From positions 1-39,881 of the forward strand of contig JAFXCH010000035.1 of the NCBI GenBank assembly GCA_017516485.1: a DNA stretch of 39,881 bases, given 5' to 3'. The translations under genes and the position numbers were made by a program. Shown in pieces: positions 5,897-25,775 of the stretch. Numbering within the stretch: position 1 is the first letter of the stretch; every line of letters begins with the position of its first letter. Below the pieces are notes generated by a model. It searched no databases, was not told the origin of the DNA, and saw only the letters and a list, made by a program, of their open reading frames with translations. This DNA is from Clostridia bacterium (GTDB taxonomy: Bacteria > Bacillota > Clostridia > Oscillospirales > Acutalibacteraceae).

Positions 5897-5924
5897 TGTG
5901 GATTCACCTCCGAAAAATATAAAT

Positions 5925-6062
5925 ATCAAAAAAGCTCTGCCCACCGATTGGAGGACAGAGCTGCAGAAAACAACAGAAAAATTGTTTTGTTAGCTTCATC
6001 CTCGGCAGGTGGTGTGAAACCTTTATGCAGTTTAACTGCGCCTGCTGTCTTTGGAACAGCTT
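5925..6062 (-). promoter_or_regulatory. Ribosomal protein L10 leader RNA
   Basis: The 200-nt gap between rplA and rplJ carries, on the minus strand, the hallmark of the L10 leader: a GACAGCAGG segment (about 6047-6039) pairing with CCTGCCGAGG (about 6012-6003), whose asymmetric G/A-rich side forms the L10-binding kink-turn. Next comes a spacer, then a terminator hairpin at 5961-5928. When free L10 binds, the leader is expected to favour termination, which balances L10/L12 with rRNA. The class is well known (Rfam L10_leader); the ends given are approximate. Confidence 0.88.
5928..5961 (-). terminator. Attenuator in the L10 leader
   Basis: The stem GCTCTG (5961-5956) pairs with CAGAGC (5939-5934) around an inner CCTCC/GGTGGG pairing. 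Six T follow at 5933-5928. It sits 32 nt before the rplJ start codon and is the regulated terminator of the leader. Confidence 0.85.
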
Positions 6063-6108
6063 GACTATAATATCATATAGTCAACACTTTGTCAAGTGTT
6101 TTTTTAAA

Positions 6109-17589: not shown

Positions 17590-19794
17590 TTGATTGACGA
17601 AGAGATTGAAATAGCCGGCATAGTTGAAGATGTTTCGGTGCATATAGACGAGACGGGCTTTACCGTGCTGGAGCTTAGCTGTGATGACGAGTTTATCACG
17701 GTTGTCGGTGTGTTGCCCGAGGTTGCAGTCGGCGAAAAGCTGACGGTAAGAGGCAATTACGATACACACCCTCTCTACGGCAGACAGCTCAAGGCAAAGT
17801 CTTTCGTGCGTTCTCTTCCGTCAAGTGCACAGGACCTTTACAAGTATCTCTCTGCAGGCACTGTCAAGGGTATTGGCCCTGCGACTGCACAGAAGATTGT
17901 TGACGAATTCGGCGAGGATGCTTTTGATGTTCTCGAAAACCATCCGGAAAAGTTAAGCAAAATAAAAGGTATTTCAAGGCAGAAGGCAAACTCAATATGT
18001 GAGGAATTTGCAAAGCAGTTTGCCGTAAGGCAGACTCTCATAGCCCTTGAAAAATTCGGTATGACGGCGAGAGAGAGCCTGAATGCATATAAAATTTTCG
18101 GCTTTAATGCTACCGAAATAATAAAGAATAATCCGTATGTGCTTTGCTCTGAGGGAATAGGCGTCAATTTTGAGCGTGCGGATGCAATTGCATCTGCACT
18201 GCCTGAAATGCCTGAGCAGATGTACCGCATACGCGCAGGTATATTACATGTGCTTCGTCATAACCTCGGCAACGGTCACACCTGCTGTCCCAGAGATAAA
18301 ATTGCCTTGCCTGCAACCGAGCTTCTCGGCGTTGAAGAGAGTATACTTCAGCAGGCTACGGATGCACTTATAAAAGATAAACAGCTTATCAGCGAAGATC
18401 TTGACGGTAAGGAATTTCTGTTCCTGCCGCATATTCACCGCAGTGAGAGAAGTGCCGCAAGGCGTATAAAGGTGCTATGTTCGTTTCCGCCTGCAGGCAA
18501 ACCTACACTTCTGCAGGATATTGAGGATATCGAGCGTGAGCTTTGCATAATATATGAGCAAAAACAGAAAAATGCAATCATTACCGCAGTTGAAAAAGGC
18601 GTGCTGATTCTTACGGGCGGCCCCGGTACGGGTAAGACAACTACTATAAACGGTATGATTTCACTTTTTAAAAAAGACAGACTCCGTATCGCACTTGCCG
18701 CACCTACGGGCAGAGCGGCAAAGCGTATGAGTGAGATTACGGGTATGGAGGCGAAAACCATACACCGTCTGCTTGAGGTTGAGTGGGACGATGAAGATAA
18801 TCAGCGTTTCACACGCAACGAACGCAATCCGATTGAAGCAGACGTGCTTATTGTCGATGAGCTTTCAATGCTTGATATAACGCTGTTTGCAAGTCTGCTC
18901 GATGCGTTGCCTCTGGGGTGCAGGCTGATTATGGTGGGCGATTCCGACCAGCTTCCGCCTGTCGGTGCAGGTAACGTGCTGCACGATATGATTGAGAGCG
19001 GAATGTTGCCTGTGGTTGAGCTTAAAGAGGTCTTCCGTCAGGCACAGCGAAGCCTGATTGTTACAAACGCACATAAAATAGTCGCAGGCGAAAATCCCGA
19101 CCTTACACGCAGGGACAGTGATTTCTTCTTCTTGCCACGCAGGGTTGCCGCTCAGGCGGCAGAAACGGTATGTGACCTTTGTGCCAACCGTCTGCCTAAG
19201 GCCTACGGCTATTCACCTATAAATGATATTCAGGTGCTTTGCCCGTCAAGGCGAGGTGAAATGGGCACCTACAGCCTCAATCGCCGTCTGCAGGAGGCGA
19301 TAAATCCGCCCAACAGACGCAAGAATGAGGTTACGGTCGGAATGTTCCGTTTCCGCGAGGGCGACAAGGTTATGCATATTAAAAATAACTACGACATTAT
19401 GTGGAAAAAGCCAGACGGTGAAGAGGGCAGCGGAGTATTCAACGGCGATATAGGAATAATAGAATCTATACGTCCCGACGGCGTTGCAAAAATTGTATTC
19501 GATGATGGCAGAATGTGCAGCTATTTTCCTGACACTATGCGTGAGCTTGAGCTTGCCTATGCCGTTACGGTGCACAAGAGTCAGGGTAATGAGTTTGAGG
19601 CGGTCATAATGCCCGTACTCAATACGCCTGAGCTTTTAAGCTACCGTAATCTGCTTTACACTGCAGTTACCAGAGCGAAGAAGTTGATGGTAATTGTCGG
19701 CAGTGAAGAGCAGGTTTACCGTATGGGACGAAACGATAAAAAAGCAAGGCGCTATTCGGCGCTGAAAGTTTTTCTTCTGGAGGATAACCGATGA
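17590..19794 (+). CDS. recD2: RecD2-family 5'-3' DNA helicase
   Basis: The 734-residue protein matches RecD2, the stand-alone RecD-like helicase used in DNA repair and replication fork upkeep. It has an N-terminal OB-like part, tandem helix-hairpin-helix motifs (GIGPATAQKIVDEFG near 92-106 and LSKIKGISRQKA near 121-132), Walker A GGPGTGKTTT at 343-352, Walker B VLIVDELSML at about 419-428, GDSDQLPPVG, and a C-terminal UvrD-like part ending in AYAVTVHKSQGNEFEAV and RNLLYTAVTRAKK. The start is TTG at 17590, 7 nt after AAGAGG. It overlaps the following gene by 4 nt. Confidence 0.96.
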   Translation: MIDEEIEIAGIVEDVSVHIDETGFTVLELSCDDEFITVVGVLPEVAVGEKLTVRGNYDTHPLYGRQLKAKSFVRSLPSSAQDLYKYLSAGTVKGIGPATAQKIVDEFGEDAFDVLENHPEKLSKIKGISRQKANSICEEFAKQFAVRQTLIALEKFGMTARESLNAYKIFGFNATEIIKNNPYVLCSEGIGVNFERADAIASALPEMPEQMYRIRAGILHVLRHNLGNGHTCCPRDKIALPATELLGVEESILQQATDALIKDKQLISEDLDGKEFLFLPHIHRSERSAARRIKVLCSFPPAGKPTLLQDIEDIERELCIIYEQKQKNAIITAVEKGVLILTGGPGTGKTTTINGMISLFKKDRLRIALAAPTGRAAKRMSEITGMEAKTIHRLLEVEWDDEDNQRFTRNERNPIEADVLIVDELSMLDITLFASLLDALPLGCRLIMVGDSDQLPPVGAGNVLHDMIESGMLPVVELKEVFRQAQRSLIVTNAHKIVAGENPDLTRRDSDFFFLPRRVAAQAAETVCDLCANRLPKAYGYSPINDIQVLCPSRRGEMGTYSLNRRLQEAINPPNRRKNEVTVGMFRFREGDKVMHIKNNYDIMWKKPDGEEGSGVFNGDIGIIESIRPDGVAKIVFDDGRMCSYFPDTMRELELAYAVTVHKSQGNEFEAVIMPVLNTPELLSYRNLLYTAVTRAKKLMVIVGSEEQVYRMGRNDKKARRYSALKVFLLEDNR

Positions 19795-20336
19795 CTGAAA
19801 ATTTTACTTTTGATGACGGTATTGAACCGGGCGGACTTCGTTCACGCAACGAGATAAAATTGCTTGTCTGCTACCTGCTTTCAGGTGTTGACGAGAAAAT
19901 TACACGCAGTCAGCTCTGCGAAATATCTCTTGATAAAGGTCTTGCAAATTATTTTGAGGTCAATCAGGCTGTCAGTGACCTGATAGAAAACGGTGCGGTT
20001 GTGTCCGATTTTATTGAGTGTGAAGAATACCTGAGTGTTACCGAAAAAGGTCGCTCATCATCTAAAATGCTCGAAAGTCAGCTTCCGCGTTCCGTGCGTG
20101 AGAAGGCAATCAATGCCGCGATAAAAATGCTCACCCTTGCAAAGCGTAAGCGTGAAAACAAGGTTGAGGTTGAAAAGCTTGCTGACGGCGGCTATCACGT
20201 AACCTTCTCTATGGAAGAAATGATGAAGCTGACAATCTATGTTGCAGATGAAATGCAGGTTGAAACCGTCAAGAATAATTTTTATGAAGACCCGATAAAG
20301 CTCTATTCGGGTATTATCGCTTCCCTTACAGTGTAA
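19791..20336 (+). CDS. DUF4364 family protein
   Basis: The 181-residue soluble protein begins with MTENFTFDDGIEPGGLRSRNEIKLLVCYLL, the pattern of DUF4364 proteins common in Clostridia. The N-terminal 90 residues look like a winged helix (SQLCEISLDKGLANYFEVNQAVSDLIENGAVV, then EYLSVTEKGR), so DNA binding is possible. The C-terminal half (about 100-180) is a mixed alpha/beta part with no recognised motif. The 4-nt ATGA overlap with recD2 and an AGGA site in the end of recD2 suggest coupled translation. It ends the nine-kilobase run that starts at purF; the hairpin-array repeat begins at the base after its stop codon. Confidence 0.83.
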   Translation: MTENFTFDDGIEPGGLRSRNEIKLLVCYLLSGVDEKITRSQLCEISLDKGLANYFEVNQAVSDLIENGAVVSDFIECEEYLSVTEKGRSSSKMLESQLPRSVREKAINAAIKMLTLAKRKRENKVEVEKLADGGYHVTFSMEEMMKLTIYVADEMQVETVKNNFYEDPIKLYSGIIASLTV

Positions 20337-20584
20337 TGAATCGATTTATCGATTCAAATCATTGAGCGAAGCGAAAAATCATGGCTGAAAGCCAAATCAT
20401 GCGATAGCAAATCATAAAACACAAAGACAATGGCAGTCGATTTCCTCGGTGCCATAAGCTTTCCTGTGCGTATCAATTTTATTGAGATATTAAAAATATG
20501 ATTTGCCTTACGGCGTGATTTGATTTCTTTGAAATCATGATTTGCAAAATAAATTTTGCATGATTTGTGTTTTCAAAACACATT
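20337..20584. repeat. Hairpin-array element, copy 1 (AAATCAT/ATGATTT arms)
   Basis: This fills the DUF4364-araB gap. A palindrome opens the element (20337-20356). Four AAATCAT heptamers follow at 20356, 20376, 20394 and 20409, separated by mini-hairpins such as GGCT-GAA-AGCC. An 80-nt central segment with a CCTCGGTGCC box (20419-20497) comes next. The right arm has heptamers ATGATTT at 20498, GTGATTT at 20515, and ATGATTT at 20537 and 20560. They are separated by GCC-TTAC-GGC, GATTTC-TTT-GAAATC, GCAAAAT-AA-ATTTTGC and then GTGTTTT-C-AAAACAC. The two arms are complementary. No transposase is present. The araB leader (20585-20639) shows no convincing promoter. Confidence 0.8.
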
Positions 20585-20639
20585 TTATATTACAGGTAAT
20601 AAACTCAAAGTATTTTATAAAACGAAAGGCTGATGAAAA

Positions 20640-22304
20640 ATGGCAAAGTATACTATAGGTCTTGATTACGGCACACTTTCAGGTCGCGCACTTATTGTCA
20701 ATGTTGAAACAGGCGAGGAGCTTGCAAGCAGCGTTTACGAGTATCCTCATGCAGTTATGGATGAGAAGCTCCCTTGCGGCAAAAAGCTCGGTCAGGACTG
20801 GGCACTTCAGCATCCGCAGGATTACATAGATGTTCTGAGCATCACAATCCCCGATGTTATAAAGAAGAGTGGTGTTGATGCAGCCGATATTATCGGTGTT
20901 GGTATCGATTTTACTGCTTGTACAGTGCTTCCCTCAACAAAAAGCGGTACTCCGCTCTGCTTCCTTGATGAGTACAAGTCAGAGCCGCACGCATATGTAA
21001 AGCTCTGGAAGCATCACGCCGCACAGGCTCACGCAACAAAGCTCAACGATATCGCTATCGAAATGGGTGAGGAGTGGCTCGAAAACTACGGTGGTAAGAT
21101 TTCTTCCGAGTGGGCAATTCCGAAGCTCTGGCAGATTCTCGACGAAGCTCCCGAAATTTATGAGAAGGCAGAGCGTTTCATTGAGGCTACAGACTGGGTT
21201 GTATGGCAGCTTACAGGCGTTGAAACACGCAACTCCTGCTGTGCAGGCTACAAGGCTATGTGGAATAAGACAACGGGCTATCCCTCAAACGAATTCTTCA
21301 AGGCTCTTGACCCCAGGATGGAAAACGTAATTGACGAGAAATTCGGCAGAGAAGTTCTTGCAAGCGGTAAATGTGCAGGCTACATCACCGAGGAAGCTGC
21401 AAAGCTTACAGGCCTTAAACCCGGCACTGCTGTTGCCGCAGGTATTATTGATGCTCATATTTTTGTACCTGCTGTCGGTGTATCAAAGCCCGGTGAGATG
21501 GTTGCGATTATCGGTACTTCTACCTGCCATATGATGATGTCTGATGTTGAGAAAAAGGTTAAGGGCATCTGCGGTGTCGTTGCAGACGGTATTATGCCGG
21601 GCCTTTACGGCTACGAAGCAGGTCAGAGCTGTGTCGGCGACCACTTCGGTTGGTTTATCGATAACTGTCTGCCTGCAAGCTACTATGAGGAAGCAAAGGA
21701 GAAGGGTATCAATATCCACAAGCTCCTCCGCTCCAAGTGCGAGGCACAGAAGCCCGGTGCAAGCGGTCTTGTTGCACTCGACTGGTGGAACGGCAACCGT
21801 TCAATCCTTGTTGACGTTGACCTTACCGGTATGATCGTCGGTATGACACTCCGCACAAAGCCCGAAGAGATTTACCGTGCACTTATCGAGGCAACGGCAT
21901 ACGGCACAAGAATGATTATTGAAAATTACCGTGAGCAGGGTGTTGAGGTCAATTCCTTCTACGCTGCAGGCGGTATCTCACAGAAAGACCCGATGACAAT
22001 GCAGATTTATGCAGATATCATCAAGATGCCTATCAAGATTGCAGGCTCCGACCAGGGCGGTGCACTCGGCTCAGCTATCTTCGGTGCAGTTGCTGCAGGC
22101 AGTGAGAAGGGCGGCTATGACGATGCTTTCTATGCCGCAAGCATTATGGGTAAGGTCAAGGATGTTGTTTACGAGCCCATCAAGGAAAATTCCGATATTT
22201 ACGATAAGCTCTATGCAGAGTACAAGATTCTTCATGATTACTTCGGTCAGGGCGGTAACGACGTTATGAAGCGTCTTAAGGCAATCAAGGGCGAGAATGA
22301 ATAA
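20640..22304 (+). CDS. araB: L-ribulokinase
   Basis: The 554-residue FGGY-family kinase phosphorylates L-ribulose to L-ribulose 5-phosphate in arabinose breakdown. The AraB-type N terminus is [17 protein letters not shown]. The substrate region includes [13 protein letters not shown] and the [10 protein letters not shown] segment. The C-terminal ATPase half has [12 protein letters not shown] and the signature [21 protein letters not shown], ending in a Gly-rich [15 protein letters not shown]. Length matches the family (about 550-560). A GAAAGGC site precedes the ATG. araA and araD are not in the window, although a GH51 arabinofuranosidase is encoded 4.4 kb upstream. Confidence 0.95.
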
Positions 22305-25592: not shown

Positions 25593-25775
25593 AATGAATT
25601 GATTTTAATCAATTCAAATCATGGAGTGTAAGCGAGAAATCATGGCTGTAAGCCAATTCATGCGAAGCAAATCATTTTTTATTTTATTTTATGATTTGCC
25701 TTACGGCATGATTTGAATTTTAAAAAATCATGATTTGCAAAAAAAGTTTTGCATGATTTGCGATAAGTCGCATTT
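25593..25775. repeat. Hairpin-array element, copy 2
   Basis: It has the same architecture as the copy at 20337. An opening palindrome TGAATTGA...TCAATTCA is followed by heptamers AAATCAT, AAATCAT, AATTCAT and AAATCAT, then a 15-nt T/A-rich joint and four ATGATTT. The heptamers are separated by mini-hairpins including GGCT-GTA-AGCC, GCC-TTAC-GGC, GCAAAA...TTTTGC and GCGA-TAAG-TCGC. Here the two arms meet directly and the CCTCGGTGCC-containing segment lies outside, next to the DUF896 start. Differences from copy 1 fall in loops or change both sides of a stem. Confidence 0.8.

Follow-up and report, generated by a model that had tools for sequence, protein, structure and literature searches.

Between two genes on a contig of a Clostridia bacterium (JAFXCH010000035.1) lies a 248-bp element that occupies positions 20337–20584 of the window, i.e., the whole 39,881-nt stretch of DNA that was analyzed; the genome is labeled G000 in what follows. 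The upstream gene is a DUF4364 gene (19791–20336, + strand; PF14277, E = 4.1e-41). The downstream gene encodes an FGGY-family sugar kinase (20640–22304, + strand; PF02782, E = 2e-43) and had been called araB in an earlier note on this DNA. The element is a single copy of a dispersed modular intergenic repeat with the organization L-(C)n-R. The two arms, L and R, are inverted relative to each other, and each holds four mini-hairpins with AAATCAT/ATGATTT linkers between them. Specifically, the left arm L (20337–20415, + strand, as are all element features given here), which we aligned among 40 arms, has mini-hairpins at 20337–20356, 20363–20375, 20383–20393, and 20401–20408, and AAATCAT follows each of them (linkers 1 to 4, at 20356–20362, 20376–20382, 20394–20400, and 20409–20415). 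The central module C (20416–20496, 81 bp) contains no linkers and is present in zero to four copies at other loci. In the right arm R (20497–20584), each ATGATTT-type linker is followed by a mini-hairpin. Linkers 5, 7, and 8 read ATGATTT (20498–20504, 20537–20543, and 20560–20566), linker 6 reads GTGATTT, with one change (20515–20521), and the mini-hairpins lie at 20505–20514, 20522–20536, 20544–20559, and 20567–20581. A further AAATCAT, at 20532, falls within a hairpin stem. The heptamer array and its positions are as the earlier note had given them. That note overlooked module C as a separate unit, 30 more genomic loci, and a second copy in the window at 25595–25760, which has no C (n = 0) and whose left arm (25595–25675, + strand) and right arm (25690–25760, + strand, an extent set by the reach of BLAST) were found by BLAST. 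Elsewhere in the window are a ribosomal protein L10 leader (5919–6072, − strand, 71.7 bits) and two tRNA genes (55–136 and 168–240, − strand).

Both the heptamer and the folding depart from chance. AAATCAT occurs at 26 sites on the two strands of the window, compared to 9.9 (sd 3.2) expected; none of 100 shuffles reaches 26, and 16 of the 26 sites fall in the 20337–20584 element and the second copy. The fold of 20337–20600 beats all 200 shuffles, with z = −4.8 as DNA and −3.9 as RNA. The suggestion that the spacers are themselves short hairpins holds for the right arm, where DNA folding gives four of four hairpins, and for three of four in the left. Folded alone as DNA, the right arm beats all 200 shuffles (z about −4), while the left arm is unremarkable, being equaled by 10 to 12 of 200 shuffles. 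The left-arm hairpin missing from the fold, GAGCGAAGCGA, has two Watson–Crick pairs plus tandem G.A pairs.

The repeat is abundant in its own genome. BLAST of the element against G000 returned 78 pieces up to E = 10, and the pieces with E < 1e-5 were merged by hand. The result is at least 32 element loci, two of them in the window; the figure is a lower bound in that scoring covered 40 of 54 first-look candidates. Searched with a covariance model built from 29 left arms, the genome gives matches at 31 places at E ≤ 0.01. Several of these matches are right arms on the opposite strand; thus, the two arms are related as inverted copies. The C module measures approximately 80 bp and occurs zero to four times per copy. 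Over the 32 loci, n = 0 at nine (among them the window copy at 25595 and loci on contigs C12, C14, C24, C41, and C49), n = 1 at 11, n = 2 at two (C9:54761 and one on C19), and n = 4 at one (C9:16902); nine loci are partial or rearranged, such as L-R-C-C-C on contig C54. The first 79 kb of contig C9, 3.6% of the genome, hold 17 of the 32 loci, where about 1.2 would be expected, with ordinary genes between them. The same 79 kb hold 14 of the 19 loci with C, and all nine n = 0 loci lie elsewhere. Arms fall inside mechanically called ORFs of at least 100 aa in 0 of 53 cases in this genus and in 23 of 198 cases in named loci. The earlier note had listed as contrary outcomes an absence of further copies, or copies lacking periodicity and pairing. 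We find instead many periodic copies with covarying hairpins, in this genome and in related ones.

Linkers, stems, and loops are conserved in different ways. Among arms found by BLAST, agreement with the majority base averages 0.98 in linkers; in stems it is 0.89 (L) and 0.92 (R), and in loops 0.66 and 0.68. Linkers are kept as sequence, stems are kept more as complementarity, and loops vary freely. The covariation check proposed in the earlier note bears this out, with the reservation that the aligned copies are related, that some rows are orthologous, and that the shuffles ignore copy relatedness. Within the genus, compensatory double changes affect 15 of 21 pairs in L arms (49 cells, at most 22 in 500 shuffles) and eight of 24 pairs in R arms (30 cells, at most 16 in shuffles). 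Extra pair types in R arms show no excess (12 versus a shuffle mean of 12.1). A pair-counting tool run on the 29 L arms scores 10 of 20 pairs and 25 cells, a level reached by none of 500 shuffles, and sliding controls give zero or one pair; two of the four L helices are only 75–79% paired in these arms. In the second stem, tandem G.A pairs replace two T-A pairs in 15 or 16 of 40 rows, and at the window locus the first hairpin of the sister genome G003 shows a compensatory change from T-A to C-G.

The same contrast is seen beyond G000. In genome G078, 41 spacers comprise 33 different hairpins and 93% have a stem of at least 3 bp, while 51 of the 55 linkers detected there read NATGAATTG, a figure to be taken with the fact that the detection pattern fixes most of the linker; CATAAATTG linkers are also seen by eye. 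Across named loci, 323 of 354 distinct spacers form at least three pairs, compared to 19% of shuffled spacers. This count draws on 117 of 125 loci. Specifically, seven plain tandem repeats (L080, L117, L121, L124, L131, L184, and L189) are left out of the array linker counts, and these seven plus L171 are left out of the spacer folding, loop-type, flank, rung-pairing, ORF, and linker-letter counts. With all 125 loci the count is 327 of 373, so omitting the eight tandem-repeat loci raises the folded fraction. Linker starts lie 14–29 nt apart without helical phasing, and even distances are favored, as expected if hairpins have 3-nt loops and lengthen one base pair at a time.

The repeat belongs to a wider Clostridia class in which each arm strings mini-hairpins together with a 7-nt linker of fixed sequence between them. 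A DNA query matches 11 genomes, G000 included, in a comparison with 97 relatives, and 15 of 147 genomes from the order have a match to the left-arm covariance model. A three-linker pattern occurs in 20 of 295 sampled genomes of the order and in 19 of 291 of the class, both figures including G000; among 249 genomes sampled from the phylum, few of them class members, it occurs in G000 only. The reversed control pattern appears zero times among the matches listed. In a named species collection, the pattern marks at least 115 stretches, and, among the matches listed, 68 of 80 are titled Clostridia, Clostridiales, or Oscillospiraceae and come mostly from rumen or gut samples. Congeners differ from none to tens of pattern matches (8 + 11 in G078 versus 0 in G200; 18 + 22 in G085 versus 0 in G061). 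Ten viral contigs carry the pattern, eight of which, L182 among them, hold arrays by linker count, with L184 and L189 set aside as plain tandem repeats. Phage and plasmid collections gave no match to one canonical element sequence.

Arm number and order vary within the class. Exactly four plus four linkers are found in 51 of 83 paired elements having at least three linkers per arm; single-arm, tandem-arm, and five-plus-five forms also occur in named loci. Distant copies have the reversed arm order, [ATGAWTTG-hairpin]x4, spacer, [hairpin-CAAWTCAT]x4. These forms bear on a proposal of the earlier note, namely that the two arms pair into a ladder of 7-bp rungs at four-way junctions. Such a ladder is plausible as a model. 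Given that single arms, tandem arms, and both arm orders exist, it would not be obligatory. A rung-pairing test, which reads the A/T state of near-invariant linkers in only ten variable 4+4 elements, gives 28 of 40 agreements compared to 24.0 (sd 2.8), and 261 of 2000 shuffles score as high.

Other linker families share the plan. The second, with linker ATATCGA/GCGATAT, is found at L205–L211 in G481, at L056, and in gaps of the sister genomes G003 and G001 that match C9:59585 and C9:61004. Its pattern is present in 7 of 196 genomes of the class, with 58 + 48 matches in G481. The third, with linker GTGAAGTT/AACTTCAC, is found at L236, L240 (G446), and L097. Both differ from the AAATCAT family in linker sequence, and both have a fixed linker of 7–9 nt, variable mini-hairpins, and arms in both directions. 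In two G446 contigs, a GTGAAGTT ladder lies behind the same left end as a ATGAATTG ladder.

Orthologous gaps reveal turnover. We compared the flanks of 19 copies with the sister genomes G001 and G003, and most gaps were read. In G003, the window copy, the copy at 25595, C9:16902, and C9:67956 occupy the same place in the same orientation, as does C9:1334 judged by gap length only; C9:3979 is seen there by its right arm only. In G001, C9:16902 is in the same place and orientation, and the window copy is reduced to a remnant of R. Two copies have the opposite orientation in the same gap: C9:33895 in G003, with nearly identical left arms, and C9:76763 in G001. Absent or remnant in both sisters are C9:12804 and C9:13123 (L1 remnant in G003), along with C9:54761 and C9:57826; C9:33895, C9:67956, C9:70838, C9:74126, and C9:78791 are absent or remnant in G001. 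C9:63842 is a 64-bp remnant in G000 and whole in both sisters. The comparison gave no placement for C9:73101. At C9:59585 and C9:61004, G000 holds AAATCAT elements, and the same gaps of G001 and G003 hold the ATATCGA/GCGATAT family. Internal changes run from linker to linker: G003 lacks two units of C9:16902 and one of the 25595 copy. The number of C modules at C9:16902 is four in G000, three in G003, and one in G001. By eye, element ends read AATG...CATT, and a flanking repeat of approximately 20 bp is present at C9:67956; no target duplication was found at the other compared loci.

The loops speak to whether DNA or RNA is the folded molecule. Loops of three or four bases close 304 of 323 folded spacers. 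GNA triloops form very stable DNA mini-hairpins, and about half of the loops (157 of 323) belong to DNA-stable types: 81 GNA, 60 GNNA, and 16 CNNG. Another 158 fall outside these types, and eight are of the reverse form, TNC or TNNC. On the CAAWTCAT strand of paired elements, GNA plus GNNA loops outnumber TNC plus TNNC loops by 44:3 in left arms (85 folded spacers) and by 34:1 in right arms (77), and no UUCG loop was counted. GNA and GNNA loops likewise exceed their reverse forms in the ATATCGA and GTGAAGTT families. Such mirroring between inverted arms is what one would expect if each arm were recognized on its own strand, or if both arms descended from one. Moreover, G.T (32) and A.C (25) oppositions are balanced over 337 spacers (p = 0.43); thus no strand is favored, unlike the case of one RNA. 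Mirrored loop types and this balance favor DNA over one RNA.

Those results weigh on a rival, a host-functional structured RNA; the earlier note had listed a structured RNA among its options. The notion is that the element would be co-transcribed with the upstream gene and that its hairpins would shield the end of the mRNA, cause transcription attenuation, or serve as a protein-binding site. Strong folding and covarying stems suit this idea, as do the 31 of 60 GNNA loops that are also GNRA. The elements are intergenic, and divergent gaps are mildly depleted for them (17 of 132 versus 100 of 444 background gaps, p = 0.019). Passages of PMC3049150 and PMC8266576 describe BOX and REP copies that can affect co-transcribed genes. 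Against an RNA, the mirrored GNA-type loops mean that one transcript has them in one arm only, and elements sit in either orientation relative to neighboring genes. A search of the element against Rfam 15 gave no covariance-model match up to E = 1, and five other loci returned only a sub-threshold SurA match (24.7 bits versus 100), more than 1 kb from the element in L083. Consistent with the earlier remark that the array is unlike ordinary terminator or REP hairpins, no intrinsic terminator (GC stem plus T-run) was found at the element on the + strand, and one weak site was found on the − strand. We regard a structured RNA as unlikely.

The best supported of the options in the earlier note is a mobile one. 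We propose, with a probability of about one half, that the repeat is a DNA element, non-autonomous and either mobile or recombining, and that it is active in single-stranded or extruded form. Its hairpins, many of them capped by very DNA-stable loops, would fold out and so draw the linkers together regardless of how long each hairpin is. An enzyme supplied in trans could then recognize each folded arm on the strand to which it belongs, in the way that inverted REP pairs are read. Recombination from linker to linker would remove or add hairpin units and C modules. In this manner, the element would be maintained as a fold plus a linker, and copied at times. As in MITEs, there are multiple short non-coding copies with inverted ends. 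No transposase sharing the element ends was seen in the loci read, and the search yielded no mobilizing gene for the element.

Mutational templating could also preserve the complementarity of the stems, and gene conversion the linkers, with no enzyme involved; conserved linkers could equally reflect host function. In its full form, this alternative holds that the repeat is a neutral relic in which template switching in quasi-palindromes keeps the stems and gene conversion keeps the linkers, with no movement or selection now. The linker-to-linker unit losses and the changes in C number at orthologous loci agree with it, and the crowding of loci at the start of C9 is what local recombination would give. 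However, many stems are just 3 bp (15 of 41 in G078), which is short for known quasi-palindrome correction, and strand-biased loop types are not expected under neutrality. In addition, near-identical copies with unrelated flanks exist in G446/G419 and in G481, which implies copying. We regard a neutral relic as unlikely.

Whether the mobile element we propose is a REP or REPIN proper, mobilized by the genome's RAYT (TnpA-REP), can be judged from tags and enzymes. Inverted hairpin arms are REPIN-like, and a tetranucleotide is conserved 5′ of each hairpin: over 301 linkers, the letters beside the hairpin are TCAT in 280 and TCAC in 21. G000 also has four weak matches to the Y1 transposase domain (C14:71722, C14:11234, C24:31901, and C21:47697), and two of these loci (L248 and L257) we take to be RAYT-like from their motifs. 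On the other hand, no GTAG or CGTC tag stands at the hairpins, and GTAG and CGTC occur three times and twice, respectively, anywhere in the arms. A search of 14 genomes found Y1 domains in 10 but, at E ≤ 0.001, none in G085, G263, or G419 (the last only 79% complete), all of which bear elements, and an array is nearby at one of 13 Y1 loci inspected. With no match at that cutoff in three element-bearing genomes and no array at 12 of the 13 Y1 loci, a Y1 transposase is inconsistent as the mover, and a REP or REPIN proper is very unlikely. One of the two RAYT-like loci lies approximately 1.1 kb from an array. We give equally little credence to a chromosome-organizing DNA site (for a nucleoid protein, gyrase, or recombination) read via its linkers, for although linkers are more conserved than stems and loci cluster regionally, linker starts are unphased, pattern counts swing from none to tens between congeners, and two sites hold another linker family in the sister species.

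The comparator and DNA-loop literature, consulted as passages of PMC3049150, PMC5090098, PMC3733652, PMC8266576, and PMC3116915, places the proposed mobile element among known repeats. According to PMC3049150, in the portions used, BOX of Streptococcus pneumoniae is a dispersed, strongly folded boxA-(boxB)n-boxC repeat, with n differing between orthologous copies, and is held to be parasitic and slow to move. The likeness, which concerns organization and not sequence, is in the two distinct end modules and the variable number of central modules (n = 0, 1, 2, 4 in G000). Unlike BOX as described there, our element has arms that are four-hairpin chains with one repeated 7-nt linker and variable stems, belongs to another bacterial lineage, and lacks a consistent target duplication. 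Passages of PMC3116915 and PMC8266576 portray REPIN/BIME elements as inverted hairpin-bearing ends around a spacer, extragenic and with compensatory changes, for which folding in single-stranded DNA has been proposed. Our element likewise has an inverted pair of hairpin-bearing ends with compensatory changes. In those accounts, however, a REP consists of one conserved palindrome, carries a GTAG tag, and comes with a RAYT, whereas the element has four hairpins per arm, variable stems, and exchangeable linkers, with neither a GTAG/CGTC tag nor a consistent RAYT link. The GTAG- and CGTC-tagged palindromic repeats treated in parts of PMC3733652 have short stems, many loops of 2–4 bases, and sub-families with complementary stem changes; they resemble the element in stems, loops, and stem changes and differ in tag and palindrome. 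The terms Clostridi, Ruminococc, Faecalibacterium, and Firmicutes are absent from the main text of that paper. A literature search for such linker–hairpin arrays, judged by titles, found no description. Given the BOX-like plan, the REPIN-like ends, and the absence of the REP tag and RAYT link, we place the element among small interspersed structured repeats.

We speculate, more tentatively, that these repeats are a mobile DNA class of their own in gut Clostridia, one defined by a short linker that recurs between hairpins of changing sequence. A putative enzyme would read the folded single strand, and linker types (AAATCAT, ATATCGA, GTGAAGTT) could mark families that displace one another at shared chromosomal sites. 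Small interspersed repeats are extended here to a class scattered over Clostridia whose stems change in sequence and whose structure persists. One strand has an excess of loop types that DNA melting studies have described, and the repeat thus offers a natural setting in which to ask whether selection acts on folded single-stranded DNA in chromosomes. Furthermore, linker plus mini-hairpin provides a search signature that ordinary sequence search misses.

A variant of the plan exists in G446/G419, where a near-identical 322-bp element has its ladder set between two further hairpins (L212–L228). By eye, its flanks are complementary host terminator arms in five of eight two-flank copies, and weakly so in the other three; three pairs of contig-end halves also have terminator-arm flanks. 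These elements sit inside host intrinsic terminators, at the loop, so that the two arms of the stem are separated. Terminator-loop targeting was considered as a property of the class and rejected: complementary flanks, defined as 7 bp or more within 8 nt of the element ends, are present in 0 of 42 paired elements of named loci, compared to 7.4% of shuffled pairs, so such targeting is not general to the class. Finally, genuine-looking arrays occur in MAG records titled outside Clostridia, as Synergistes (L079) and as a planctomycete (L108), perhaps through mislabeled bins or transfer.
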